Shown here one piece after another: positions 4,719 to 21,406 of a stretch of 64,000 bases of DNA (position 1 is its first letter; the number at the start of each line of letters is the position of its first letter). The position numbers and the translations under genes were made by a program. Under the pieces are notes generated by a model that ran no database searches, was not told the origin of the DNA, and saw nothing but the letters and a program-made list of their open reading frames with translations. Origin of the DNA: Bryobacteraceae bacterium (GTDB lineage: Bacteria; Acidobacteriota; Terriglobia; Bryobacterales; Bryobacteraceae); NCBI GenBank assembly GCA_026129905.1, contig JAHCHE010000006.1, positions 186,001-250,000 on the forward strand, in the 5' to 3' direction.

Positions 4719-4749
4719 AAAGGTGACAAGGGCCGCAGGCGTCACCTTT
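4719..4749. repeat. Inverted repeat upstream of the efflux operon
   Basis: AAAGGTGAC at 4719-4727 and its exact complement GTCACCTTT at 4741-4749 form a 9-bp stem with a 13-base loop. Read on the minus strand the stem is followed by a T run, as in an intrinsic terminator. Read on the plus strand it lies in the leader of the TolC-like gene. Function is undetermined. Confidence 0.45.
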
Positions 4750-4794
4750 CCTCGGGTTTCGCATCAGGTAAATGACGCCGCCTTTGGAGTTCGA

Positions 4795-6132
4795 ATGAAG
4801 AAAGCCCTTTGGGGAGTCCTACTAGCCACCGTTCCGCTGGCGGGCCAGGGCCCGCTCAGCCTCGAGGAAGCCGTCCGTACCGCGATCGAGAAACACCCCG
4901 CCATGGAAGCCGTCTCGGCGCAGGCTGCCGCGGCCGGCGCCCGGATCCAGCAGGCCCGGAGCGGTTACCTGCCGCAGGTCAACTACCAGGAATCCTTCGC
5001 CCGCAGCGACAATCCGGTCTACGTATTCGGCAGCCTGCTCACGCAGCGGCAATTCACCGAGTCGAACTTCGCGATCGGATCGCTGAACCGGCCGGACTTC
5101 CTGAACAACTTTCAGTCGTTGCTGGCGGTGGAGCAGACGGTGTTCGACGCAGGCCAGACGCGGAACAACACGCGCGCGGCGGAACTGGGCCGGGACATGG
5201 TGGAGCAGCAGCAGCGCGCCGCGACGATGAACGTCATCGCGGGCGTGGTGCGGGCCTACCACGGCGCCGTCCTGGCGGCGGAAAGCCTGAAGGTGGCCGA
5301 GGAAGCGGTGCGCTCGGCGGAGGCCGATCTCCAGCGGGCCGAAACGGTCCGCTCGGCCGGGATGGCTACGGACGCCGATGTGCTGTCGATTCGCGTGCAC
5401 CTGGCCGGGATGCGCGAGCAGAGGATCCGGCGGCGCTACGATCTCGATGTCGCGCGGTCCGCCCTGAACGAGGCGCTCGGGCTGCCGCTGGATACGCCGC
5501 ACGATCTCACCACGCCGCTTAGCGCGCTGGCGCCGCCGGCCGCGCAGGCCGCCGAATATGAGCGAAAAGCCGCGGCCGAACGGCCCGAACTCCGGCAGGC
5601 CGAGCTTTCCGCCCGCCTCGCCGAGGTCCAGTCGAAAACCGCGCGGGCCGCGTACTGGCCCCAGGTATCGCTGCGCGGCGTGTTCGAGGCGGACCGTCAG
5701 AATTTCGTCAACAAGGGAGGCGCCAACTGGTACCTCGGCGCCACCATGCGCTGGAACCTTTTCGGCGGCTTCGCCACGCAGGCGAGGGTGAAGGAAGCCG
5801 AGCACGCCCTGCGCGGCGCCCAGGCCGAGCGGCAACGCGCCGACGCCGGCGTTCGCCTCCAGGTCCGGAGAGCGCACGCCGACCTTCAGGCGGCGCAGGA
5901 GCGGATCGAGGTGGCCGGCGTGGCCGTGGACCAGGCCGAGGAAAGCCTCCGCATCACCAGGAACCGGTACGAAGCCGGCATGACCACGGTGACCGACCTT
6001 TTACGCAACGAGACCGCGTTGCTGGAAGCCAAGACCCGCCGGCTGGCGGCGATCTACGACCAGCGGGTGGCGGCGGCGATGGTGGAGCTGGCCGCCGGGG
6101 TTTTGTCGGCCGATTCGGAAGTTCTCAAGTAA
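4795..6132 (+). CDS. TolC-family outer membrane efflux protein
   Basis: The start at 4795 is chosen because GGAG lies five bases upstream and the protein then opens with a clean signal peptide (MKKALWGVLLATVPLAGQ). The frame itself reads from 4723. The mature protein of about 428 residues shows two OEP repeats. The first is SLEEAVRTAIEKHPAMEAVSAQAAAAGARIQQARSGYLPQ and the second is YERKAAAERPELRQAELSARLAEVQSKTARAAYWPQ, followed by long helical coiled-coil regions. It forms the outer-membrane channel of the tripartite pump encoded with the next two genes. Only 8 bp separate it from the adaptor gene. Confidence 0.92.
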   Translation: MKKALWGVLLATVPLAGQGPLSLEEAVRTAIEKHPAMEAVSAQAAAAGARIQQARSGYLPQVNYQESFARSDNPVYVFGSLLTQRQFTESNFAIGSLNRPDFLNNFQSLLAVEQTVFDAGQTRNNTRAAELGRDMVEQQQRAATMNVIAGVVRAYHGAVLAAESLKVAEEAVRSAEADLQRAETVRSAGMATDADVLSIRVHLAGMREQRIRRRYDLDVARSALNEALGLPLDTPHDLTTPLSALAPPAAQAAEYERKAAAERPELRQAELSARLAEVQSKTARAAYWPQVSLRGVFEADRQNFVNKGGANWYLGATMRWNLFGGFATQARVKEAEHALRGAQAERQRADAGVRLQVRRAHADLQAAQERIEVAGVAVDQAEESLRITRNRYEAGMTTVTDLLRNETALLEAKTRRLAAIYDQRVAAAMVELAAGVLSADSEVLK

Positions 6133-6140
6133 CGATAGTC

Positions 6141-7289
6141 ATGAAAAAAGCGATTCAATTTGCGGCATTTGTTTCAACGCTCGCGCTGGTTTCCTGCGGA
6201 GGCGAGCCTCCGGCCAAAACCAGGGCGGAAGCCGCGCCGGTCCGAGTCCAGGCAACGGCGGTGGAGGAGCGGGAATGGCAGGTTCTCTACGAAGCCACGG
6301 GCACGGTGCGAGCCCGCACGGCGGCCACGCTGTCGAGCAAGGTGATGGGCTATGTCCGCGAGGTGAAAGCGCAGGTCGGCGACTCCGTCAAGGCGGGGCA
6401 GTCGCTGGTCGTGCTCGACTCGCGCGACCTGGATGTGTCCAACCTCCAGGCGCAGGCGGGCGTCAACGAAGCCCGAAGCGCGATGGCCGAGGTGGATAAC
6501 GCCATCGCCGCGGCGCAGGCGCAGCTCGAGCTGGCGCAGGCGACGTTCAGACGAATGAAGGATCTTTTCGACAAGAAATCGATCTCCGATCAGGAATTCG
6601 ACGAGGCGTCCGCCCGGCTGAAGCTGGCCGAGGCGAACCATGAAATGGCGCGCTCGAAGAAGACGCAGCTTTCGGAGAAGATCCGGCAGGCCGAGCAGGC
6701 GCTCGCGTCGACCGAGATCATGCGCGGCTACGCCGAGATCAAAGCGCCATTCAACGGGCGGATCACTGAGAAGTCGGTAGAGCCCGGCAACCTGGCCGCT
6801 CCCGGCGCGCCGCTACTGGTGGTGGAGCAGGCCGGCGGCTACCGCTTCGAGGCGAGCGTGGAGGAGTCGAGGCTGCCGTTCGTGCGCCTGGGGCAGGAGG
6901 TCACGGTGGAACTCGACGCGCTCGGGCAGCGCGCGCCGGCGCGGGTGTCGGAGATCGTTCCCGCGGTGGACGCGGCGTCCCGGACATTCATCGCCAAGGT
7001 CAACCTGCCGAACCTGGCGGGACTCAAGTCGGGATTGTTCGGCCGGGCCCGGTTTCAGGCCGAATCGCGCAAGGCTCTGACCATCCCGCGCGAGGCGGTG
7101 ACGGTACGTGGCCAGATGCAGTCTGTCTTTGTGGTGGAGGGCAACCGCGCCCGGGCGCGCCTGGTGACGCTGGGGCAGGGCCGCGAGGACCAGGTGGAAG
7201 TGCTGTCGGGCCTGGCGCCGGGCGACCAGCTTGTGCATCCGGTGCCGCCCGCGCTCACCGACGGCGCCGCGGTGGAGGTTGCGCGGTGA
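6141..7289 (+). CDS. RND efflux periplasmic adaptor (membrane fusion lipoprotein)
   Basis: The product is a 382-residue HlyD/AcrA-type adaptor. It starts with a lipoprotein signal ending in the lipobox LVSC (Cys at about residue 19), so it should be anchored by lipid. A biotinyl-lipoyl half domain with [26 protein letters not shown] is followed by a coiled-coil hairpin of about residues 105-200. The second lipoyl half is [20 protein letters not shown] and the beta-barrel region follows. It bridges the TolC channel and the RND pump. The stop codon overlaps the GTG start of the RND gene (GTGA), showing translational coupling. Confidence 0.93.
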
Positions 7290-10200
7290 AGGAACCATCG
7301 TCGCTGGGCACGGCCGGCAAAGTCGCCCACGCATTCATCAATTCGAAGCTGACGCCCCTGATGATCGTGGCATCGCTGGCGCTCGGCGCGTTCTCGGTGT
7401 GGAAACTGCCGCGGGAGGAAGAGCCGCAGATCATCGTTCCCATGATCGACATCTTCGTCGCGATGCCGGGCGCTTCGGCCAGGGAAGTGGAGGAGCGGGT
7501 CACCCGGCCTATGGAGAAACTGCTGTGGGAAGTGCCGGGCGTCGAATACATCTACTCGACGTCGATGCCGGGCAGCGCGATGGCGATCGTGCGCTTCTAC
7601 GTTGGCGAGGACGAAGAGAAGGCCATCGTCCGGCTGAACCAGAAGATGTTCGCCAACTTCGACCTCATCCCGCCGGGCGCCTCGCAACCGCTGATCAAGC
7701 CGCGCTCGATCGACGACGTGCCAATTCTCGCGCTCACTCTCTGGAGCGAGCGCTACGACGACCACGTGCTTCGCCGGATGGCGGCCCAGCTTCACGACGC
7801 GGTGAAGCAGACGCCGGACGTCTCCGCCGTGCAAATCATCGGAGGGCAGCGGAGGGAAGTCCGGGTGACGGTGGACGCCGCGCGCCTGGCCGCCTATGGG
7901 CTGACGCCGGTGCAGGTGATGGGCGCGCTCGGCGCGTCGAACCGGCGGCTGCCCTCCGGCAAATTCTCCACGCAAAACCGAGAATTTCTCCTGGAAACCG
8001 GCGAATTTCTGTCGAGCGCCGACGACGTTCGCAGCGTCGTGGTAGGGGTCGCCAACAATAAGCCGATATTTGTCCGTGACGTCGCCGAAGTAACCGACGG
8101 GGGCGAGGAGCCTTCACAGTACGTTCACTTCGCCCGCGGCGATACGTTCTATCCGGCCGTGACCATCTCCATTTCCAAGAGGAAGGGGACGAACGCCATA
8201 TCGGTCGCGGAGAACGCGCTCCGTCGCGTGGAAGCGCTGAAGGGCCAACTCATCCCCGCGGACGTGGAAGTGGAAATCACCAGGCATTATGGCGAGACGG
8301 CGGCGGAAAAATCGAACGAATTGCTGTTCCACATGGCGATCGCGGTGGTCAGCGTCAGCATTCTGATCTGGATCACCCTTGGCTGGCGCGAATCGTGGAT
8401 CATTTTTACGGCCATACCGGTCACGCTGGCCCTCACCCTGACGACATTTTTCCTCTACGGGTACACGCTGAACCGGATCACGCTGTTCGCGCTGATCTTC
8501 TCAATCGGCATCCTGGTGGACGACGCGATCGTGGTGGTGGAAAACATCGTGCGTCACCGGCAGCTTCCAGGAAACCAGGAAAGGCCTCTGGTGGAGGTCG
8601 CGGTGGAAGCGGTGGACGAGGTCGGGAATCCGACGATCCTCGCGACGTTGGCGGTGATCGCCGCCATTCTGCCGATGGCGTTTGTCGGCGGGTTGATGGG
8701 ACCCTACATGCGGCCCATACCGATCGGGGCTTCGGCGGCGATGGTGTTCTCGCTGCTCGTCGCGTTCATGATTACGCCGTGGGCCGCGGTGCGGATGCTT
8801 TCCAGGCAAGCCGGACATGGGCACGAAGGAGAAGAAGACCGCCTGACGAAGATCTACCGCGCGTTCATGGGCAGAGTGTTGCACAACACGCCCCTGCGCG
8901 CGACCTTCCTGGCCGGCGTCACCGTCCTGCTGCTGGGTTCGATGGCGCTGGTCTACATCGGATTCGTCAAAGTGAAGATGCTCCCGTTCGACAACAAGAG
9001 CGAATTCCAGGTGATTATCGACATGCCGGAAGGAACGACGCTCGAGGAAACCGCGCGGGTGACGCGGGAACTGGCGGAAGCGGTGGACCGGCAACCGGAG
9101 GTGGTGAACGTGCAGACATACGTCGGCACGGCATCGCCGTTCAACTTCAACGGGCTGGTCCGCCATTACTTTCTGCGATCCGGATCCAACGTCGCCGACA
9201 TCCAGGTGAACCTGCTGCCCAAGCACGACCGGAAGCGGCAGAGCCACGATATCGCCAAAGCCGTGCGCGTGGACCTGGAGCCGATCGCCCGCCGCTGGGG
9301 CGCCAACATCAAGGTGGCGGAGGTTCCTCCGGGGCCGCCCGTCCTACAGACCCTTGTGGCGGAGGTCTACGGACCTACCCAGGAAGGGCAGATCCGCGTG
9401 GCGCGACAGATCAAAGAGATGTTCGAAAAGCTGGACGGAGCGGTGGACGTGGACTGGTACGTCGAGGACGACCAGGTGAAGCACCGGCTGGTTGTCGACA
9501 AGCAGAAAGCGGCGCTGCACGGCATCTCCGAGGAAGACATCGCCCGGACGATGGCGGTGGCGTCGGCGGGCGAGGTGGCCGGCCTTTTGCACGACGGCGC
9601 CGCCAAGGAGGATGTCCCCATCCGGGTGCGCCTGGACCGCGCCGTGCGCTCCGACCTGGAGAGGATGCGCGACATGAAAGTGCAGGGCCGGTCCGGCGCT
9701 GTGGTGTCGTTGCGCGAACTCACTCGCGTCGAGACGGTGACCGCCGACAAGAGCATCTACCACAAGAACCTGATGCCGGTCACTTACGTGACGGCCGACG
9801 TGGCGGGCGCGATTGAAGCGCCGGTCTACGCCATCCTAGAGATTGCGCCGAAAATCGAAGCGCTCCAGATACCCGAGGGTTACCAGGTTCAGCAATACAC
9901 CGCCTCGCAACCCGCGGACGATTCGCGCTACGCCATGAAGTGGGACGGCGAATGGCACATCACCTACGAGGTGTTCCGCGACCTCGGCATCGCTTTCGCC
10001 GCCGTGCTGGTGCTGATTTACGTGCTGGTGGTGGGCTGGTTCCAGTCGTTCATCACGCCGCTGGTAATCATGGCGGCCATCCCGTTCTCGCTGGTGGGCA
10101 TCCTGCCGGCGCACGGACTGCTCAACGCGTTCTTCACCGCCACGTCGATGATCGGGTTCATCGCCGGCGCGGGCATCGTCGTTCGCAATTCGATCATCCT

Positions 10201-10459
10201 GGTAGATTTCATCGAGCTGCGCCTCAAAGAAGGGATGCCGCTCGATGAAGCGGTCATCGACGCGGGCGCGGTCCGCTTCCGCCCAATGATGCTGACCGCG
10301 GCGGCGGTGGTGGTTGGCGCGAGCGTGATACTGTTCGATCCGATTTTCCAGGGACTGGCTATCGCGCTGATGGCGGGTGAAATCGCTTCGCTGGCGCTGT
10401 CGCGCATGACCGTCCCGATTGTGTATTTCATCATCAACCGTAGAAAGGCACACCCATGA
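7286..10459 (+). CDS. RND efflux pump permease (AcrB/HAE1-like)
   Basis: The 1057-residue protein starts at GTG 7286, overlapping the adaptor stop. It opens with the usual RND N-terminus, in which a membrane helix [20 protein letters not shown] is followed by porter sequence [15 protein letters not shown]. Transmembrane helix 4 carries [18 protein letters not shown] with the paired aspartates of the proton relay. Two periplasmic porter halves (about residues 35-330 and 560-880) and twelve helices can be placed, with a second set ending [13 protein letters not shown]. It should export small hydrophobic or metal-containing compounds by proton antiport. Substrate specificity cannot be read from sequence alone. 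Confidence 0.93.
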
Positions 10460-10805: not shown

Positions 10806-12344
10806 ATGCCGCTTGCCAACTCCGGAATCGACTACCGGCTCATACCGCTCGCGCTCATCCGTATCGTGATCGGCTGGCATTTTCTCTACGAAGGTTGGGC
10901 CAAGGTGCTCAATCCAGGCTGGACCTCGGCCGGATTCCTGAAGTCGAGCACGGGTCCAGTGGCCGGCCTGTATCACTTTCTTGGCTCGAACTCCGCGCTG
11001 ATCCGGATTGTGGACCAGGTGAACATCTGGGGCCTGGTGCTCATCGGGCTGGCGCTGATGCTGGGCCTGTACGCTCGGGCCGCGGCGGTGGGCGGGATGG
11101 CGCTGCTGGCGCTGTACTACTTCGCATATCCGCCCTTCTTCACGCCGGTGCTCAACGGAGTGACCGAAGGCTCGTACCTCATCGTCAACAAGAACCTGGT
11201 GGAGTTATTCGGACTGGCGGTGGTGGCTGCGTTTCCGGCGGCGGCGTTCGGGCTGGAAGGCATACTTGCCCGGCTCAAGAACGGCGCCGCGCCCGAGGAG
11301 ACCCTGCCGCCGGTGGCCGTTGACAAGGCCGTTCCGGAGTACCTCGGCCCGCTCTCCCGGCGGCACGTTCTCACCGGTCTGGCGGGCGTGCCGGTGCTGG
11401 GTGGGTTCGTTCTGGCCGTGTTGAAGAAGCATGGCTGGAGGAGCTTCGAGGAAGCGCACCTGAGAGGCGTGAGAGGGCAGACCGACGAGTTCACGGCCAG
11501 CGCCACGGTCAAAAAGTTCTCCTTCGCCAGCATCAGCGACCTGGAAGCGCGCTTGCCGTACGGTAAGATCGGCAACATCACGCTCAGCCGGATGATCCTG
11601 GGCGGCAACCTCATCGGCGGCTGGGCGCACGCCCGCGATCTGATCTATGTCTCAAAACTGGTGCGCGCGTACCACCATCGGGACAAGATCTTCGAGACCC
11701 TGGCGCTGGCCGAGAAGTGCGGCGTCAATGCGATCATCACCAACCCGCTGCTGTGCGGGATCATGAACGATTACTGGCGCAACGGCGGCAGGATTCAGTT
11801 CATCTCCGATTGCGGCGGCCAGAACGTGCTGGAGATGATCCAGCGCTCCATCGACCACGGCGCGTGCGCCTGCTACATTCAGGGCGGCGTGGCGGACCGC
11901 CTGGTGGAGGAAGGGAAATTTGACCTGATGGCGCAAGGCCTGGATCTGATCCGCCGGAACCGGCTGCCCGCCGGCATCGGAGGTCATAAGCTGGAGACCA
12001 TCAAGGCGAGCGTCGACAAGGGCCTGCGGCCGGACTTCTGGATGAAGACGCTGCACCACGTGAACTACTGGTCGGCGAAGCCGCAGCCGGAGAACGACAA
12101 CATCTGGTGCGACTCTCCCGAGGCGACCATCGAGTTCATGAAGACGCTGAAAGAGCCGTGGATCGCATTCAAGATCCTGGCCGCGGGGGCGATTCCTCCG
12201 GAGATCGGCTTCAAGTGGGCGTTCGAAAGCGGCGCGGATTTCATCTGCGTCGGGATGTACGATTTCCAGATTGTGGAAGACGTCAACCTGGCGGCGCGGG
12301 TGCTGAACGGGACGCTGGTGCGGCAGCGCCAGTGGTACGCGTAG
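10806..12344 (+). CDS. DoxX-family membrane domain fused to a TIM-barrel-like domain via a Tat-like motif
   Basis: The first 160 or so residues of this 512-residue protein look like a DoxX/SURF4 four-helix membrane unit. IRIVIGWHFLYEGWAKVLNP is typical, and helices such as WGLVLIGLALMLGLYA follow. At about residues 182-200 there is SRRHVLTGLAGVPVLGG, a twin-arginine motif plus hydrophobic stretch placed internally. The remaining 300 residues (IGNITLSRMILGGNLIGGWAHARD..., VNAIITNPLLCG, WIAFKILAAGAIPP, FESGADFICVGMYD) resemble an aldo/keto-reductase-like or other TIM-barrel fold. Such a fold would lie across the membrane from the cytoplasm if the Tat motif works. The start follows a GAGGAG ribosome site. 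The fusion itself is clear; the enzymatic role is unknown. Confidence 0.7.
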   Translation: MPLANSGIDYRLIPLALIRIVIGWHFLYEGWAKVLNPGWTSAGFLKSSTGPVAGLYHFLGSNSALIRIVDQVNIWGLVLIGLALMLGLYARAAAVGGMALLALYYFAYPPFFTPVLNGVTEGSYLIVNKNLVELFGLAVVAAFPAAAFGLEGILARLKNGAAPEETLPPVAVDKAVPEYLGPLSRRHVLTGLAGVPVLGGFVLAVLKKHGWRSFEEAHLRGVRGQTDEFTASATVKKFSFASISDLEARLPYGKIGNITLSRMILGGNLIGGWAHARDLIYVSKLVRAYHHRDKIFETLALAEKCGVNAIITNPLLCGIMNDYWRNGGRIQFISDCGGQNVLEMIQRSIDHGACACYIQGGVADRLVEEGKFDLMAQGLDLIRRNRLPAGIGGHKLETIKASVDKGLRPDFWMKTLHHVNYWSAKPQPENDNIWCDSPEATIEFMKTLKEPWIAFKILAAGAIPPEIGFKWAFESGADFICVGMYDFQIVEDVNLAARVLNGTLVRQRQWYA

Positions 12345-12449: not shown

Positions 12450-15400
12450 GTGAGCGATAATCGTGGGTCTGCCGCGGACGGCCGGATGGCGCGGAGATCT
12501 GGCGATCTGAAACTGGCATTCTCTTCCCTCGTTGAACTACTTCAGGCTCGGGCCGAACGCGACGCCGGCCGAGCGGCGTACGCCTTTCTCGATGAAGGCG
12601 GCGGCGAGGCGGCCGTCACGTACGGGGAACTCTGGGCCAGGGCTCGCGCGATCGGCGCGCGGCTCACGGGCATGACGAAACCCGGAGACCGGGCGCTGCT
12701 GCTCCATCCGCCCGGGAATGACTTTCTGGCGGCGTTTTTCGGCGCGCTCGCCGCCCGGGTGGCGCCCGTTCCGTTGCCGCTGCCGGGCGCGCGAAGCGGG
12801 CTGGACAAGCTGAGCCTGGTGGCCGAAGACTCCGGCGCTGGCGTCGCGCTGACGGTCTCGTCGGTGGCGGATGAGATCCGGGCGGGCCTTGCGCCTCTGG
12901 CGGTGGAAGCCACCGACGCGGTTGGCGTTGAGGAAGGGGTGGGATTCGAGTTGCCTGTCCTTCCGCCGGACGGGCTCGCGTATTTGCAGTACACCTCCGG
13001 GTCCACCGGCATTCCGCGCGGCGTGATGGTGAGCCACGCGAATGTGCTCCACAACCTCGCCAATATCGACGAAGGCTTCCGGCACGCGCCGGACAGCGTG
13101 GTGGTGAGCTGGCTGCCGCACTTCCACGACATGGGGCTGATCTACGGCCTGCTGGCGCCGCTGTATCACCGTATTCCCTGCTACTTCATGGCGCCTGCGC
13201 AGTTCGTGCGGCGTCCGGCGGCGTGGCTGGAAGCCATAACGCGCTACCGGGCGACACACAGCGGAGGGCCAAACTTCGCGTACGACCTGTGCGTGCGGCG
13301 CATTCCGCCAGAGGCGCGCGCGACGCTGGATCTGCGTTCGTGGGAGGTGGCGTTCAACGGAGCCGAACCGGTGCACGCGGAGACGCTGGACCGCTTCACG
13401 GAGGCCTTCTCGCCGTGCGGGTTCCGGCGCGCGGTCTTCCACCCGGCGTATGGGCTGGCCGAGGCGTCATTGAAGGCGACGGGCGGCGAAAAGGACGCTC
13501 CGCCGGTGGTGTTCGTTGCGCGCCAGGCGGCGCTGTCGCTGGATCGGGCCGAGCAGGCCGAACCCGGCGGGCCGGATGCCCGGCCGATCGTGGGCTGCGG
13601 ACGCGCGGGGCTCGACACCCGCGTCGCGATCGTGGATCCCGAGTCGCGGCAGCGCCGTCTCGAGGGGGAGGTAGGTGAAATCTGGGTCGCGGGGCCGGGC
13701 GTGGCGCTCGGCTATTGGAACCGGGAGGAAGAAACCCGAGAGACATTCCAGGCGACGCTGGCCGGCGGCGAGGGGCCGTTCCTGCGGACCGGGGATCTCG
13801 GGTTTTTGCGGAATCGCGAGCTTTTCATCGCCGGACGGATCAAGGACCTGATCATTATTCGGGGCCTGAACCATCACCCGAGCGATATCGAACTAACCGC
13901 GCGGCGCGCGCACCCGGAGATAGCCTCCAGCGTGTGCGCCGCGTTTTCCGTCGACGCCGGCGGAGAAGAACGGCTGGTGATCGCGGTGGAGGCCGGCCGT
14001 CAGGCGCCGGCCGAGCCGGAAGCCATTGCGTCGGCGATCCGGCAGGCGACGGCGGAAGCGCACCAGGTGCGGACCTACGCGGTCGCGCTGGTTGCCCGGG
14101 GCGGGATTCCGAAGACCTCCAGCGGGAAGATTCCGCGCGGGCTTTGCCGCTCGCTGTACCTGGCGGGCAAGCTCGACGTGGTGTGGGAAAGCGCGCCGGA
14201 GGAGACCGGGAGGGATGAGGAGGCGCTCGAGCTCGACCGCGGCGGTCTGCTGGCGATGCCGGGGGAGGCGCGCAAGGCGGCCGCCGAGGAATACGTGCGG
14301 CGGCGGCTGGCCATTCTGCTCAAACGGAAAGTGAGCGAGATCGACGCGTCGAAACCGTTTACGGCTTACGGCATCGATTCGCTGGGCGCGTTGGAACTGC
14401 AGAACCGGATGGAGCAGGATTTCGGGGTCCGGTTTGAAGCAGGGGAACCGGTGGCCGAAGCAAGCGCGGAAGAGCTGGCGGCCCGCCTCGTAACGCTTAT
14501 TGGGCAGCCTCCCGCGGATGGCCCGATCCCCGCGCGCGGCTGCCTGCGCGGGCCGCTGTCGTTCGAGCAGGAACGGCTGTGGCTGCTCGACCAGGTCGCG
14601 CCGCGAAACCCGGCGCACGCGATCCCTTCGGCGATTCGGATTGAGGGACCGCTTCAGCGCGAGGCGTTGGAAGGCGCGCTGCGGGATTTGGCGGAACGGC
14701 AGGAGTCGCTACGGAGCCGCTTCGTAGTCGAGAACGGCGCGCCAGTGGCGGAAGTTGCTCCGCTTGCGTCCGTCCATCTGGCGATCACGGAAGCGGACGG
14801 GCTGGACGCGGTCCGGCGGCTGGCGTCGGAGGAGGCGGCCGCGCCGTTCCGGCTGGACGAGGCGCCGCTGTTCCGGGCGCGGCTGTACCGGCTAGGCGAA
14901 AACGACCACGTACTGCTACTGACGATTCATCACATTATTTCCGATTTGTGGTCCGTTCGGTTGTTTTTTGGGGAATTGTTTACTTTTTACTCAGCCCGGG
15001 TGGAGGGAATGGACGCCGGCCTCCCGCCGTTGCCTGCCTGCTATTCGGATTACGCGGCCTGGCAGCGGGAGCGCTTGCAGGGAGCGAAACTCGAAGCGCT
15101 TACCGCGCGCTGGCGCGGGCGGCTCGAGGGCGCCGCGGGCATCGAGCTGCCGCCGGACCGGCCGCGGAAGAAAGCGCCGGTTGCGCCTGCCGCAACCGAG
15201 TACTTCACGCTGACGGAGGACGCGGCGGCAGCGCTGCGGGCGTTGTGCCGGCGCGAGAGCGTCACGCCGTTTGTCGCGCTGCTGGCGGGCTTCGAGGTTC
15301 TCGCGGCGCGCTGGAGCGGGCAGACGGACATCACGCTCGGGGTCACCGGCGCGAACCGGGGCCGGCCCGAGATGGAACGGCTGATCGGATTCTTCGCCGC

Positions 15401-18023
15401 CCCGCTGCCAGTGCGTCTCGATCTGGGCGGCGATCCGGATTTCCTGGAAATCATGCGGCGGGCGCGCAGGGAGACGACGGACGCGTCCGCGCATAGCGAA
15501 CTGCCGTTCGCGAAAGTGGTCGAGGCGGCGCGAACCGGGCGCCGCGCGGATCATGCGCCGCTGGTGAACGTGATGTTCAGCGTCTTCCGTTCGCCGCTGC
15601 CACCGGCGGCTCCGCGGGATTTGAGCTTCTCGCCGGTCGATGTCGGGCCGGCGGCCGCGGATTTCGACCTGTTCGTCACCCTGGTTGAGGAAGGCAAAGA
15701 ACTGCGCGGGACGGCGGCGTACAACGCGGGCCTGTACGACAGCGAGACGGTCCGGGCGGCGATGGGGGCGTACCGGCGGATTCTGGAGGTCGCCGTCGCG
15801 GCCCCGGCGACCCGCCTTTCGGAATTTCCCGTTACGGCGGCATTGAAGGCGGCGGCGCATCGCCGGGCGGAAGATCGCCCCACCATTGCCGTGGCCGCGA
15901 CCTTCACCGCGGAGCCGGTGGACGAGGTTTTGCGTTTCTGGATGAAGGAACTCGATTTCGATTACCGCATCCGGTTCGCTCCCTATAACCAGGTCTTCCA
16001 GCAATTGTTGAACGGATCGAGTCTCATTGGGGCGCATTCCAAAGGATTGAATGTCGTGCTGGCGCGGATCGAAGATTGGGCGCACAGCCGGACGGCGCCG
16101 GACGCGGGGGAACTGCGCGACACGGCGGCGCGGTTCATCGCGGCGCTGGAGGCGGCGGTGGCGCGGTCCGGCGCGCCCGTCCTGGTGGTGGTGTGTCCGG
16201 CGTCGCCCGGATTTCTTTCGGAGGCCGCCGGCAAGGCCTTACAGGGGGAGCTGGAAGAACGGATCGCCGCCGCGTTCGCCTCGGTCAGCGCCGTTCACGT
16301 GGTTCGTCCCGCCGAGATCGAGACGCTCTACCCGGTGGCCCTCTACCACGATGCCCATGGCGAGCGCCTGGGACATGTGCCGTATACGCCGGAGTTCCAC
16401 GCAGCGCTCGGGACGACGATCGCGCGCAAGCTTCACGCGATGCGCAGCGCGCCGTACAAGGCGCTGACGCTCGATTGCGACCAGACGCTGTGGAGCGGCG
16501 TGTGCGGCGAAGACGGCCCGGCGGGCGTGAGCGTCGACGCGCCGCAGCGGGCCTTGCAGGAGTTTGCGCTCCAGCAGCGCCGCGCCGGCATGCTTCTTTG
16601 CCTTGTGACCAAGAACAACGAAGACGACGTATGGGCCACGTTCGACGCCCATCCGGAAATGCCCCTGCGCACGGAACTCCTGACCGGCTGGCGGGTGAAC
16701 TGGCGGCCCAAATCGGAGAACCTCCGCTCCCTGGCGGCCGAACTGGAACTCGGCCTCGACAGTTTCATCCATATCGACGACAATCCGGGCGAATGCGCGG
16801 AAATTGAAGCGAATTGTCCGGAAGCGCTGGCGCTGAAACTGCCGCGGGATCCCGGCGCGATCGATCGTTACCTGTGGCACGTATGGGCATTTGACCGCCT
16901 TTCGGCTACCGGGGAAGACAGGAATCGGGCGGCGATGTACGCGGAGAACGTCGAGCGGCGCGCGCTCCAGCGTCGGACGGCGACGCTCGCTGAGTTCCTG
17001 AAGGCCTTGAATCTACAGATCCGGATTTCCACTCCGGCGCACGACCAGGCGGCGCGCATCGCGCAAATGACGCAGCGGACCAACCAGATGAACTTCACCA
17101 CCATCCGGCGGCGGGAGCACGAAATCCGGGAGGCGCTGGAGCGGGGCGGCGCCGAGTGCCTGGTGGTGGAACTGAACGACCGGTTTGGGGCGTACGGCAT
17201 CGTCGGGGTGATGATTTTCCGCGCCGCCGGACAAGACCTGGAGGTCGACACTTTCCTTGTGAGCTGCCGCGCATTGGGCCGCGGCGTGGAGCACCGGATG
17301 ACGGCGAGGCTCGGTGAAATCGCGACGGAACGGGGGCTTGGCCATGTCGTCCTGCGGGTGATCCCGACCGCGAAGAACCAGCCGGCGCGCGATTTCGTCG
17401 AAAGCGTTGGGGCGCTGTGGCGAGAACCGGCCGACGCCGGCGCCGTGTACCGGCTGCCGGCCGCCTATGCGGCTTCGATCGTTCACAGCCCGTCGAGACC
17501 AAGCGATCCGGCGGAGACGAAAGCCGCCGCCGGCCCCGAAAAGGTCAGGCGGGCCATCGACTATCACCGGATCGCGACGGAACTGGACGATGCCGGCAAA
17601 ATCCTGCGCCAGATTCGCGCCACGCTGCACACGGGCGCTGTGACCCGCGCCGCGTACGCGCCGCCGCGTACGCCGCTTGAAAAGGAGCTGGCCGCTCTTT
17701 GGGAGGAGATGCTGCGCGCGCCCCAGGTGGGGGTGGACGACAATTTCTTCGACCTCGGCGGACATTCGCTGCTTGCGGTTCAGTTATTGTCGCGAATTCG
17801 CGAACGATATAGCGCCGACCTTCCGCTCGACGTCGTGTTTACCGGGAATTTCTGCGTGGCGGAACTCGCAAAGGCGATCGAAATTCATGAGATCGAGCGG
17901 GCGGGAGCAGAGCAATACGCGGAGTTGCTGACGGAACTCGAAGGTCTCAGCGACGACGAGGTGCGCGCGCTGCTGGAACAGGAACTCCACGACGACGCGG
18001 CGCGAAGCGGCGAATCCGGCTGA
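12450..18023 (+). CDS. Hybrid megasynthase FAAL-ACP-C-FkbH-ACP
   Basis: This 1857-residue multidomain enzyme starts at a GTG (an ATG twelve codons later is possible). The first domain is a fatty acyl-AMP ligase (about 15-590), with YTSGSTGIPRGVMVSH, SWLPHFHDMGLIYGL and KDLIIIRGLNHHPSDIE. Next is a carrier domain with GIDSLGAL, Ser644. A condensation domain (about 690-1130) carries HHIISDLWS, with His828 and Asp832 of the HHxxxD motif. An FkbH-type HAD domain follows (about 1145-1650), with an N-terminal extension, the DCDQT nucleophile motif (Asp1342, Asp1344) and HIDDNPGE. A last carrier domain has DLGGHSLLAVQLL, Ser1773. FAALs load fatty acids on carriers and FkbH proteins load glyceryl units from 1,3-bisphosphoglycerate. 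The C domain could join the two. There is no ketosynthase and no amino-acid adenylation domain. Release is presumably by the thioesterase two genes downstream. Confidence 0.9.
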   Translation: MSDNRGSAADGRMARRSGDLKLAFSSLVELLQARAERDAGRAAYAFLDEGGGEAAVTYGELWARARAIGARLTGMTKPGDRALLLHPPGNDFLAAFFGALAARVAPVPLPLPGARSGLDKLSLVAEDSGAGVALTVSSVADEIRAGLAPLAVEATDAVGVEEGVGFELPVLPPDGLAYLQYTSGSTGIPRGVMVSHANVLHNLANIDEGFRHAPDSVVVSWLPHFHDMGLIYGLLAPLYHRIPCYFMAPAQFVRRPAAWLEAITRYRATHSGGPNFAYDLCVRRIPPEARATLDLRSWEVAFNGAEPVHAETLDRFTEAFSPCGFRRAVFHPAYGLAEASLKATGGEKDAPPVVFVARQAALSLDRAEQAEPGGPDARPIVGCGRAGLDTRVAIVDPESRQRRLEGEVGEIWVAGPGVALGYWNREEETRETFQATLAGGEGPFLRTGDLGFLRNRELFIAGRIKDLIIIRGLNHHPSDIELTARRAHPEIASSVCAAFSVDAGGEERLVIAVEAGRQAPAEPEAIASAIRQATAEAHQVRTYAVALVARGGIPKTSSGKIPRGLCRSLYLAGKLDVVWESAPEETGRDEEALELDRGGLLAMPGEARKAAAEEYVRRRLAILLKRKVSEIDASKPFTAYGIDSLGALELQNRMEQDFGVRFEAGEPVAEASAEELAARLVTLIGQPPADGPIPARGCLRGPLSFEQERLWLLDQVAPRNPAHAIPSAIRIEGPLQREALEGALRDLAERQESLRSRFVVENGAPVAEVAPLASVHLAITEADGLDAVRRLASEEAAAPFRLDEAPLFRARLYRLGENDHVLLLTIHHIISDLWSVRLFFGELFTFYSARVEGMDAGLPPLPACYSDYAAWQRERLQGAKLEALTARWRGRLEGAAGIELPPDRPRKKAPVAPAATEYFTLTEDAAAALRALCRRESVTPFVALLAGFEVLAARWSGQTDITLGVTGANRGRPEMERLIGFFAAPLPVRLDLGGDPDFLEIMRRARRETTDASAHSELPFAKVVEAARTGRRADHAPLVNVMFSVFRSPLPPAAPRDLSFSPVDVGPAAADFDLFVTLVEEGKELRGTAAYNAGLYDSETVRAAMGAYRRILEVAVAAPATRLSEFPVTAALKAAAHRRAEDRPTIAVAATFTAEPVDEVLRFWMKELDFDYRIRFAPYNQVFQQLLNGSSLIGAHSKGLNVVLARIEDWAHSRTAPDAGELRDTAARFIAALEAAVARSGAPVLVVVCPASPGFLSEAAGKALQGELEERIAAAFASVSAVHVVRPAEIETLYPVALYHDAHGERLGHVPYTPEFHAALGTTIARKLHAMRSAPYKALTLDCDQTLWSGVCGEDGPAGVSVDAPQRALQEFALQQRRAGMLLCLVTKNNEDDVWATFDAHPEMPLRTELLTGWRVNWRPKSENLRSLAAELELGLDSFIHIDDNPGECAEIEANCPEALALKLPRDPGAIDRYLWHVWAFDRLSATGEDRNRAAMYAENVERRALQRRTATLAEFLKALNLQIRISTPAHDQAARIAQMTQRTNQMNFTTIRRREHEIREALERGGAECLVVELNDRFGAYGIVGVMIFRAAGQDLEVDTFLVSCRALGRGVEHRMTARLGEIATERGLGHVVLRVIPTAKNQPARDFVESVGALWREPADAGAVYRLPAAYAASIVHSPSRPSDPAETKAAAGPEKVRRAIDYHRIATELDDAGKILRQIRATLHTGAVTRAAYAPPRTPLEKELAALWEEMLRAPQVGVDDNFFDLGGHSLLAVQLLSRIRERYSADLPLDVVFTGNFCVAELAKAIEIHEIERAGAEQYAELLTELEGLSDDEVRALLEQELHDDAARSGESG

Positions 18024-18025
18024 TC

Positions 18026-19348
18026 ATGCGCATTCTGCTTACGTCCTCCGCGTCCCACGCGCCGCCCCGGGGCGGCTCGACGCGCAGCAACCTGGCTTGG
18101 CTGGAATATCTGGCGTCGCGGGGGCATGACTGCCGGATCGTGGCGCCCGCGCCGCTGCGGGACACGCCCCGCCGCGCCGCCCGCGTCGCTTCCGACCTGG
18201 ACGAGCAGGGCATCCGCACGAGTCATCTCAAGACGGACGCCGCGCTGGGCTTCGACGCGTTGCGCAAAGGCGATATCACCCTGTACGCCGTCGCCGATCC
18301 CGCGCGGCTGCGCGCCGTTCTGCGCCGGAAGCTGCGCATATTCCAGCCGGACTGGACGCTGGTCTCGTCGGAGGACCTTGGCCAGGTACTGTTGCGCGAA
18401 GCGGTGGAGCACGGCGCCGGGCGCGCGATCTACCTCGCGCATACGCCGCAGATGTTCCCGTTCGGCCCGGCGAGTCTGAATCCGAACCCCGCGGGCGCGG
18501 AAGCGGCGGCGCGCGCGGCCGGGATTGTGGCCATAGGCAATTACACGGCCAATTACGTGGAGAAGCACCTCGGGCGGCGGCCGTCCGTCATCCATCCGCC
18601 GGTGTATGGCGCTCCGCCGTTTGTCCGCCGCGATCCGGACGCCGGCGGGCTGATCACAATGATCAACGCCAGCGCGGTGAAAGGGATCGGCATCTTTCTG
18701 GCGCTGGCGCGGCGCTTTCCGGAGTACCGGTTCGGAGCGCTGCACGGCTGGGGCACCATCGAAGACGACTTGCGGGCGCTGGCCGAGCTTCCCAACGTGA
18801 CGCGGCTGGCGAAGGCGCAGCGGATCGAGACGGTGCTGGAGAAGACGCGCATTCTGCTGGTCCCGTCGCTGTGGCCGGAGGGCTTCGGCCTGGTGGTGAC
18901 GCAGGCGATGCTGATGGGCATCCCCGTACTGGCGAGCGATCTTGGCGGGTTGGTGGAGGCCAAGGCCGGTACGCGCTACCTTCTGCCGGTGCGCCCGGTG
19001 GAGCGGTACCTGGCGGCGTTCGACGAAAACCACATGCCCGTCCCGATAATTCCGGAGCAGAACATCGAACCGTGGGCGCGCGCGGTGGAAGAGCTGATGA
19101 CGGGGCGGGAACTGTATCGGCGCGAGGCGGAGTCGGCGCGCGCGGCGGCTCTTCGCCTGGTGGCATCGGTTCGGCCGTCCGCCTTCGAAGATTTTCTGCT
19201 GGCGTTGGTCCCGGCTGCTCCCGAGCGGGCGGCGCAGGCGGCGCCTGTCTCGCCGGCGGCCCGTCAAGGCGGCATGGAGGAGCTTTCGGCCGAACGCCGC
19301 GCGCTGCTGCTGCGAATGATGAAGGAAAAGGCGCGAGCGCGCCGGTGA
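18026..19348 (+). CDS. Glycosyltransferase of the GT4 type
   Basis: The start lies two bases after the megasynthase stop, so co-translation is likely. The 440-residue protein opens MRILLTSSASHAPPRGGSTRSN, the N-terminal nucleotide-sugar transferase fold with a glycine-rich acceptor loop. The C-terminal half has LLVPSLWPEGFGLVVTQAMLMGIPVLASDLGG, the donor-binding region of GT4 retaining enzymes. The usual ExxxxxxxE motif is changed: the second acidic position reads Gln. It should transfer a sugar from an activated donor onto the product of the cluster. It is clearly related to the next gene's glycosyltransferase half, and the two look like a duplication. Confidence 0.85.
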   Translation: MRILLTSSASHAPPRGGSTRSNLAWLEYLASRGHDCRIVAPAPLRDTPRRAARVASDLDEQGIRTSHLKTDAALGFDALRKGDITLYAVADPARLRAVLRRKLRIFQPDWTLVSSEDLGQVLLREAVEHGAGRAIYLAHTPQMFPFGPASLNPNPAGAEAAARAAGIVAIGNYTANYVEKHLGRRPSVIHPPVYGAPPFVRRDPDAGGLITMINASAVKGIGIFLALARRFPEYRFGALHGWGTIEDDLRALAELPNVTRLAKAQRIETVLEKTRILLVPSLWPEGFGLVVTQAMLMGIPVLASDLGGLVEAKAGTRYLLPVRPVERYLAAFDENHMPVPIIPEQNIEPWARAVEELMTGRELYRREAESARAAALRLVASVRPSAFEDFLLALVPAAPERAAQAAPVSPAARQGGMEELSAERRALLLRMMKEKARARR

Positions 19349-19357
19349 AAGGTTCCG

Positions 19358-21406
19358 ATGCGAATCCTCCTGGCGCAGAATTCGCCGTACTATCCGGCGC
19401 ACGGCGGCGGCGACCGCTCGAACCGGCTGCTGCTGGAGGCGCTGGCGACACGGGGACACGCCTGCCGCGCGTTGGCCCGGACGCAAAGCGGCTTGGGCGA
19501 CGAGGAGCACGAGCGCTACCTCGACGCGCTGGCGCAACGCGGGGTGCGCGAGGTGGAGGCGGAGACAGGCGCGGCGCGGTTTCGTCTGAACGGCGTCGAG
19601 GTGCGCGCGATCACGAGCCACCCGAACCTGCGGGCGTACGTTCAGCAGGAGATCGAAAGCTTCGCGCCCGACGTAATTCTGACGTCAACCGACGACCCCG
19701 CACAGCTCTTCATCGAGATCGCGATGCAGTCGCCCGCGCGGGTGGCGTACCTGGCCCGGACGACCCTGGCGCTGCCGTTCGGTCCGGAGGCGGCCATCCC
19801 GAGCGCGGAGAAGGCGTACCGGTTGCGGCAGACGGACGGAGTGGTTGCGGTGAGCGAATACGTCGCCAACTACATCCGCGCGTGGGGCGGCATCGAGGCG
19901 CGGGCGCTGCCGATTTCACCGCTCGACCCCGGCCCGTATCCGGAACAGGGCGCCATTGGCAACGAGTTCGTGACGATGGTGAATCCGTGCGCGGTGAAGG
20001 GAATCACGATTTTCCTGGCGCTGGCGGACCGCATGACCGGGGTCGCGTTCGCGGCCGTTCCTACCTGGGGGACCACAGCCGAGGACATCGCGTCGTTGCG
20101 GCGGCGGCCAAACGTGCGGTTGCTGGCGCCGGTGGACGATATCGGCGACATTCTCCGGCGAACGCGCGCACTGCTGGCGCCGTCGCTGTGGGCGGAGGCG
20201 CGCGGCCGAATCATCGTCGAGGCGATGCTTCGCGGCATCCCGGTACTGGCCAGCAAGGTGGGCGGCATCCCGGAAGCGAAAATGGGCGTGGATTACCTGC
20301 TTCCCGTCCGGCCGATCACGCGGTACCAGCACCGGCTGGACGAACAGATGGTCCCGGTGGCGGACGTTCCGGAGCAGGACGCCGGTCCGTGGCAGGCGGC
20401 GCTCGAAGAGCTGTTGTCGAGCCGCGAGCGGTACGGGCAGGTTTCGCGGCAGTCGCGGGCGGCGGCGCTGGCCTACGCCGCCGGTTTGAGCGTCGAACCG
20501 CTGGAGCGCTACCTGGCTGCAATCGTCGAAGCTCCGGGCAATCCGCTGCGCCCCACGGCGGCTGCCGGCGCGGGCTCGTCCTCGTCGTCCTTGCGAAAGA
20601 TGACCCCGGACAAGCTCGCGCTGCTGGCGGCCCGGATGAAGAGGAAGGCCGCGGCGCCGCCGAGCGGGAATCCGTGGTTTCCGACGCTCCGGGAAGACAG
20701 CGGCGCGCGGTTGCGCCTGTTCTGTTTTCCATATGCCGGGGGCGGGACGTCAGCATTCCGCTCCTGGCCGGGGATCCTGCCGCTCGAGATCGAAGTGGCG
20801 CCGGCGCGGCTGCCGGGAAGGGAAGCGCGGTTCGGCGAGCCGCCTTTTCAGGAGATCGAGCCGCTGGTGGAAGCGCTGCTCGCTTCGGCCCGTCCTCACC
20901 TGGAGAAGCCCTATGCGCTGTTCGGGCACAGCATGGGCGCGATGATCGCACTCGAATTGGCGCGCGCCGTGCGGCGTGAAGGGCTGCCGGGACCGCGCAT
21001 GGTGCTGGCGGCCGCCGCACGGGCGCCGCAGTTCCGCCGGGGCCACATCGCCGCGCCGGAACCGCCGGAAGAGGAGTTCCTCGCGGAGCTCCGGGATCTA
21101 CAGTGGGCGCCCAGCGCGCTGCTGGAAGACGAAAAGCTGCTGCGGCTGGTCCTGCCGGCCCTGCGCGCCGATTCGTCGTTGTGCCGTACCTATTCGTACG
21201 CTCCGGAACCGGCGCTGGACTGCCCGATCGCGGCGTACCACGGGGCGGACGATCCGCGCCTGCCGTCACAGGTCATCGAACCCTGGCGGGAGCAGACCAC
21301 CGCCGCTTTCCGGATGCGCGCGCTGCCCGGGGGGCACTTCTTCCTGCACACCGCCGAACGGGAGTTTCTCGAGATGTTGAGCGAGGATCTGAAATCCGTA
21401 TACTGA
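19358..21406 (+). CDS. Glycosyltransferase (GT4) fused to a type II-like thioesterase
   Basis: This 682-residue fusion has two parts. Residues 1 to about 430 form a GT4-type glycosyltransferase (MRILLAQNSPYYPAHGGGDRSN at the start, AEARGRIIVEAMLRGIPVLASKVGG in the donor site). After a serine-rich linker, residues from about 445 form an alpha/beta-hydrolase thioesterase. It opens with LRLFCFPYAGGGTSAFRSWP, has the nucleophile elbow LFGHSMGAM and ends with PGGHFFLH carrying the likely catalytic His. Thioesterases of this kind release or proofread carrier-bound acyl chains. Fusing one to a glycosyltransferase suggests that glycosylation and release of the lipid are linked. It follows the first glycosyltransferase by 9 bp. 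Confidence 0.88.
   Translation: MRILLAQNSPYYPAHGGGDRSNRLLLEALATRGHACRALARTQSGLGDEEHERYLDALAQRGVREVEAETGAARFRLNGVEVRAITSHPNLRAYVQQEIESFAPDVILTSTDDPAQLFIEIAMQSPARVAYLARTTLALPFGPEAAIPSAEKAYRLRQTDGVVAVSEYVANYIRAWGGIEARALPISPLDPGPYPEQGAIGNEFVTMVNPCAVKGITIFLALADRMTGVAFAAVPTWGTTAEDIASLRRRPNVRLLAPVDDIGDILRRTRALLAPSLWAEARGRIIVEAMLRGIPVLASKVGGIPEAKMGVDYLLPVRPITRYQHRLDEQMVPVADVPEQDAGPWQAALEELLSSRERYGQVSRQSRAAALAYAAGLSVEPLERYLAAIVEAPGNPLRPTAAAGAGSSSSSLRKMTPDKLALLAARMKRKAAAPPSGNPWFPTLREDSGARLRLFCFPYAGGGTSAFRSWPGILPLEIEVAPARLPGREARFGEPPFQEIEPLVEALLASARPHLEKPYALFGHSMGAMIALELARAVRREGLPGPRMVLAAAARAPQFRRGHIAAPEPPEEEFLAELRDLQWAPSALLEDEKLLRLVLPALRADSSLCRTYSYAPEPALDCPIAAYHGADDPRLPSQVIEPWREQTTAAFRMRALPGGHFFLHTAEREFLEMLSEDLKSVY

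Follow-up and report, generated by a model that had tools for sequence, protein, structure and literature searches.

A candidate carrier-protein cassette for glycosyl-glycerate in Bryobacteraceae and its lipid-loading extension

What might be made by an assembly line that is predicted to start from a fatty acid and a glyceryl unit and is followed by two glycosyltransferases and a thioesterase (TE)? This question is raised by three adjacent genes, P0001 to P0003, in a 64,000-nucleotide stretch of a Bryobacteraceae bacterium genome (GenBank assembly GCA_026129905.1, contig JAHCHE010000006.1, positions 186,001 to 250,000), referred to here as the window and used for all coordinates unless another locus is named. 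We compared these genes with domain models, solved structures and related genomes, and the more interesting discovery proved to be not P0001 itself but the core cassette to which it belongs.

The three-gene locus

P0001 (12450..18023, forward strand; 1857 aa) was originally predicted to combine a fatty acyl-AMP ligase (FAAL), an acyl carrier protein (ACP) domain, a condensation (C) domain, an FkbH domain and a second ACP, and Pfam and NCBIfam matches together with motifs confirm this order. The FAAL domain spans residues 25-575 (12522..14174) and is followed, all on the forward strand, by the first carrier with Ser644 in the motif GIDSLGALEL (14370..14399), the C domain (residues 702-1126, 14553..15827; PF00668, 262 bits), the N-terminal, HAD and GNAT-like parts of FkbH (residues 1141-1690, 15870..17519) and a PP-binding carrier (residues 1746-1810, 17685..17879) with Ser1773 in GGHSL. 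The closest solved structures to the FAAL domain are 7r7g (an FAAL filed as a polyketide synthase, 484 bits), 3kxw and FadD32. An amino-acid adenylation (A) domain in its place was rejected, since TIGR01733 gives this stretch 145 bits, below its cut-off of 317, and the solved neighbours are FAALs. No ketosynthase (KS) model appears in the Pfam tables of P0001 to P0003 or among the best 25 of 94 NCBIfam matches of P0001, and the predicted lack of both domain types stands.

The FkbH region matches TIGR01686 at residues 1337-1654 with 274 bits (cut-off 146.65), and its DxDxT, DD and SCRxLGRG motifs are invariant or almost so across 32 aligned rows. Its structure model (mean predicted local distance difference test (pLDDT) 90.7; predicted template modelling score (pTM) 0.70) retrieves 3slr first in Foldseek, followed by GNAT enzymes and HAD phosphatases. 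By profile and motif, it is a predicted glyceryl-carrier synthase. Both active sites were checked for loss, and the HHIISD of the C domain (from residue 827, 14928-14945) and the LDCDQTLW of FkbH (at 1341) are intact; HHxxxD is kept in all four fused C domains of the C-domain alignment.

The original prediction also placed two GT4 glycosyltransferases and a TE downstream, and the open reading frame coordinates, GT4 models and PF00975 bear this out: the three frames are co-directional, with gaps of 2 bp between P0001 and P0002 and 9 bp between P0002 and P0003. P0002 (18026..19348, forward strand; 440 aa), here called GTa, was assigned to GT4 through its Pfam matches. P0003 (19358..21406, forward strand; 682 aa) is a GT4-TE fusion. 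Its GT4 domain, GTb, occupies the first ~390 residues (19358..20536, forward strand) and carries the EX7E motif at E280 and E288; MshA, BshA and PimA are among the nearest solved folds to its structure model (pLDDT 93.6), which fits a retaining GT4 with the GT-B fold. The TE domain (20660..21403, forward strand; PF00975, 150 bits, P0003 residues 453-675) is closest to the type II enzymes RedJ (1e-46) and RifR (4e-45), with GHSMG and the His of its triad in 27 of 27 rows and the Asp in 26 of 27. Since it is fused to a GT4, however, it is not the free-standing editing enzyme that defines type II.

Judged by sequence, the catalytic motifs of the cluster are intact with the single exception of one GTa residue: its EX7E motif reads EGFGLVVTQ, with Gln (codon CAG, 18902-18904) where the second Glu would stand. 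GTa still fits the GT4 sequence family despite departing from EX7E, and the Gln may lower or change activity here or may be an assembly error.

The original prediction knew of no described pathway with this logic, a claim that holds only in part. According to the accessible portions of PMC10099666, PMC8949500 and PMC12397197, the vioprolide starter is FAAL-ACP-C-FkbH-T (T, thiolation domain), with a C domain called ester bond-forming, onto glycerate; the same FAAL-ACP-C-FkbH(HAD)-T starter is proposed there for corramycin, which is myxobacterial like vioprolide. For the vioprolide FAAL, the accessible part of an FAAL review lists C16:0 and C17:0 from in vitro data. By domain order, rather than by aligned sequences, P0001 is a predicted starter of the vioprolide type, sharing with both systems the FAAL lipid start and the FkbH domain that replaces an A domain. 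The logic of P0001 is already known from these two systems, in which long nonribosomal peptide synthetases (NRPSs) follow, whereas two GT4s and a TE follow in the window and no NRPS gene was found adjoining the cluster. The part of the claim that stands concerns the whole three-gene set, for which, as for its core FkbH-ACP/GT4/GT4-TE, we found no description in the open-access literature searched (most subscription journals lie outside it). What is new is this core as the conserved unit of the family, of which FAAL-ACP-C is a branch-specific extension.

The core cassette in relatives

We compared P0001 with 101 genomes, comprising the window's own and 100 relatives. Many family proteins in this set align to P0001 only from ~1140 to 1850, and around such partial relatives lie FkbH-ACP, GTa and GTb-TE in the same order and on the same strand. 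A search of 34 GTb rows against named genomes gave 122 relatives, the best 80 of which were examined as loci and sorted by tblastn content. Going by their titles, nearly all are Bryobacteraceae, Bryobacterales, Solibacter or other Acidobacteriota metagenome-assembled genomes, and the flank upstream of FkbH is mostly 3-7 kb, shorter on small contigs.

In 60 of the 80 loci, FkbH, GTa, GTb and TE occur together and both C and FAAL are missing. FAAL and C are additionally present in two (L110, L130), C stands at the contig start of one (L128), two are cut before the TE (L175, L178; L178 ends at a contig edge ahead of any TE) and one has FkbH and GTb only (L132); the others carry GTa, GTb and TE (four), GTb and TE (five) or GTb alone (five). 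GTa, GTb and TE form a single open frame in 14 of the 80. Queries for KS, acyltransferase (AT), aminotransferase, A, C and FAAL had no match in 77 of the 80 loci, the three that matched being the fused loci; as controls, all six queries match L099, and those for A and C match L100 and L090. The conserved unit in Bryobacteraceae, the family being assigned from the named relatives, is FkbH-ACP/GT4/GT4-TE, without FAAL or C.

Across the family, a P0003 relative occurs in 106 of 237 genomes (E<=1e-60) and 48 of 76 genera. P0001 matches 102 of the 237 (E<=1e-120), and in G502, G549, G605, G613 and G641 these matches are confined to FAAL or FAAL-ACP-C. Genomes with a match to FkbH as well as a P0003 relative number 94, counted by co-occurrence rather than adjacency; three genomes have the former without the latter, and 12 the latter without the former. 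In a phylum sample, the P0003 query matched 7 of 396 genomes, namely the window's own and six others that match one part each. The C-domain model PF00668 has no match in 57 of the 94 genomes with both genes, 32 of these 57 being at least 95% complete, so the core needs no NRPS.

The FAAL-ACP-C extension occurs in four genomes. P0001 is full-length in three of them (G055, G595 and the genome of the window), and the G050 copy is cut at a contig start; the full-length relatives, from two other genera, are 55% and 53% identical to P0001, and the contig-cut relative, from a third genus, is 48% identical. Because relatives exist in three other genera, the domain arrangement is not a chance one. The four fused rows form one branch of a 68-row FkbH tree (93/95; 92% of 200 bootstrap trees). 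Placing the C domain by phylogeny succeeded at the tips, where the fused C domains form one branch (100/100) separate from the C domains located after FAAL-ACP in the family's lipopeptide synthetases (L194, L195, L196); the deep order is unresolved, with long branches and an unsettled bootstrap, and we used the tip branches alone. On the simplest reading, the FAAL-ACP-C block was probably gained once by fusion, although the FkbH tree is midpoint-rooted, its root is unfixed and repeated loss of the block is compatible with it.

Proposed pathway and competing explanations

In the pathway that we propose, the FAAL would load a fatty acid onto Ser644, FkbH would charge Ser1773 with glyceryl drawn from 1,3-bisphosphoglycerate or 3-phosphoglycerate, and the C domain would form an ester between the fatty acyl group and one of the glyceryl hydroxyls, in the manner of vioprolide. 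The GT4 domains would glycosylate the hydroxyl left free, probably with the glyceryl unit still held by the carrier, and perhaps attach a second sugar, and the TE fused to the second GT4 would release the acid. In most relatives, the core would perform glyceryl loading, glycosylation and TE release to give a glycosyl-glycerate; the window would add fatty-acyl loading and esterification through its FAAL-ACP-C block. We give roughly an even chance to such a stand-alone carrier-protein pathway to an acylated, glycosylated glycerate, its sugars, linkages and product being predicted. The TE-released acylated glycosyl-glycerate of the original prediction remains the best reading, qualified by the changed residue in the GTa EX7E motif.

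More tentatively, and with confidence somewhat short of even, we propose that FkbH-ACP/GT4/GT4-TE is a separate thiotemplate class, in which glycosyltransferases, not KS or C domains, would build on a carrier-bound glyceryl thioester and the TE would cut off a small glycoside, the window being a lipidated offshoot. If this is true, carrier-protein assembly lines can dispense with KS, C and A domains altogether in making glycosides, and lines of this kind are spread over numerous genera of a soil Acidobacteriota family that is mostly uncultured. Cluster-detection tools that rely on KS, C or A domains would probably overlook most of these cassettes. At three genes, the set should lend itself to reconstitution.

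Two described systems come near this scheme in part. According to the accessible text of PMC9581180, a C-FkbH-PCP unit (PCP, peptidyl carrier protein) supplies glycerate to the cystomanamides, a glycosylated lipopeptide family, but as an internal module of a five-module NRPS, with fructose on some analogues. In suomilide and banyaside, the accessible text of PMC13122637 proposes that glycerate bound to the carrier of an FkbH loading module is tailored on the line, as we propose here; the tailoring is by an O-methyltransferase and a sulfotransferase (methylation and sulfation) and not by glycosylation, NRPS modules follow, and the glycosyltransferase is proposed to act after release.

Several points weigh against our pathway, and some return below with the alternatives that they favour. 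Product, sugar donor and acceptor are predicted from genes. The loci and genomes are related and often fragmentary, and their counts are not independent. FkbH is missing from 14 of the 80 loci, mostly through contig-edge cuts, and L119, L152 and L173 have room for FkbH yet carry GTb-TE or GTa/GTb-TE without it; such FkbH-less cassettes count against the pathway. Where the window's GTa has Gln, the other 27 rows of the 28-row alignment all keep the second EX7E Glu, as do 65 of 65 motif matches from L110-L189. The window has no match to our queries for phosphopantetheinyl transferase (PPTase), major facilitator superfamily (MFS) transporter or D-2-hydroxyacid dehydrogenase, and it is the absence of the first two that counts here. 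The closest solved GT4s use free or lipid acceptors, and in L147 (553-2602) and L155 (4121-6254) a GTb relative is followed by an FkbM-type methyltransferase, without FkbH or TE. Finally, the window genome holds five C domains beyond that of P0001, and a TE of the type II editing kind need not free a final product.

The acceptors of the solved GT4s, together with L147 and L155, where no carrier gene lies near the GTb relative, favour an order of events in which the TE first frees acyl-glycerate or glycerate and the GT4s then act on the free molecule. BshA, whose acceptor is the hydroxy acid malate, is the nearest precedent; BshA, MshA and PimA are like GTb in fold (~14-19% identity in the fold match) but unlike the cluster in having neither carrier protein nor TE. 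A carrier, FkbH and PPTase would be needless for free glycerate, and the GT4-TE fusion in the window and most cassettes, a core without any other acyl substrate and GTb-like domains within NRPSs all suggest a tethered substrate. One such NRPS, in L100 (2-5781), reads carrier, then GT4-C-A-PCP-TE, on a contig that begins at that carrier and could not show an upstream FkbH; the other, in L090 (14170 onward) with L091, reads GT4-C-A-T-C-A-T and is preceded by a GT2 gene. If tethered glycosylation is true, these GT4s would glycosylate during assembly. Glycosylation after release is on balance unlikely, though the best placed of the alternatives. The product class expected of the core cassette is that of glucosylglycerate-type compatible-solute pathways, which use phosphoglycerate and, to our knowledge, no carrier protein.

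The same NRPS-borne GT4s can be read another way, with P0001 making a lipopeptide starter block: an acyl-glyceryl unit, perhaps glycosylated, would be passed in trans from Ser1773 to an NRPS elsewhere, and the TE would only edit. The vioprolide and corramycin starters precede NRPS modules, the TE is closest to type II enzymes, and the six C domains of the window genome (one in P0001, five elsewhere, alongside one FkbH) would offer a recipient. However, G055, G595 and G050 have one C domain per genome. The fused protein, the GT4 and the GT4-TE are all present in G055 and G595, where the sole C domain found is that of the fused protein. The many core genomes without a C domain match and the lack of an NRPS gene beside the cluster also argue against a starter role, which we rank behind release before glycosylation and likewise consider unlikely.

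It is improbable that the fatty acyl group serves as a transient pro-moiety, lost later to leave a glycosyl-glycerate as final product as in the FAAL-less relatives: in the accessible corramycin report the FAAL is active, the acylated product was not found and the authors cite fatty-acid removal in vioprolide, but no deacylase gene was recognised beside the window cluster.

Neighbouring genes and other loci

Neighbour clustering found clade-level partners and none common to all cassettes. In 17 of the 80 loci, the TE gene ends in an overlap with a PPTase homologue or no more than ~0.2 kb from the start of one (PF01648 confirmed for two, the rest by tblastn). Another 16-locus set, counted over the same 80, has an MFS transporter on the opposite strand at most 0.7 kb from the cassette (four upstream, 12 downstream; one checked against Pfam), and three further MFS matches are distant or weak. 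Together with the dehydrogenase described below, these clade-level partners would suit a self-sufficient carrier pathway whose product is exported.

Several neighbours in the window were considered as cluster parts and set aside. Membership of the RND pump genes (4723-10459) and of a DoxX-like gene (10806-12344) is unsupported: TolC, membrane fusion protein (MFP), RND and DoxX have no match in L033, a 20-kb stretch of G055 that surrounds its fused locus, or in L130, where only ~3 kb of upstream sequence is covered. The frame at 10806-12344 (512 aa) has a DoxX-like N-terminus at 23.5 bits against a Pfam cut-off of 23.6, while nothing matches its long C-terminal part. DUF6807 and Gfo/Idh genes on the opposite strand near the cluster have no link to it.

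FkbH domains also occur in other settings. In L099, FkbH-ACP starts another assembly line and is followed by KS-AT-ACP-aminotransferase-C-A, and in L197 an FkbH-ACP start is followed by C-A-T modules. L198 (G523) and L199 (G039) have C-FkbH in NRPS-like loci, and their C domains form a branch of their own. Records titled Arcobacter and Nevskia (L159, L178) hold Bryobacteraceae-like cassettes and are probably mis-binned or mislabelled.

A D-2-hydroxyacid dehydrogenase homologue lies downstream of the cassette in 11 of the 80 loci (L117, L122, L124, L127, L129, L131, L133, L145, L146, L171 and L172), and may serve to form, break down or alter glycerate or the glycoside made from it. Its gene is mostly trailed by one for a Gfo/Idh oxidoreductase.

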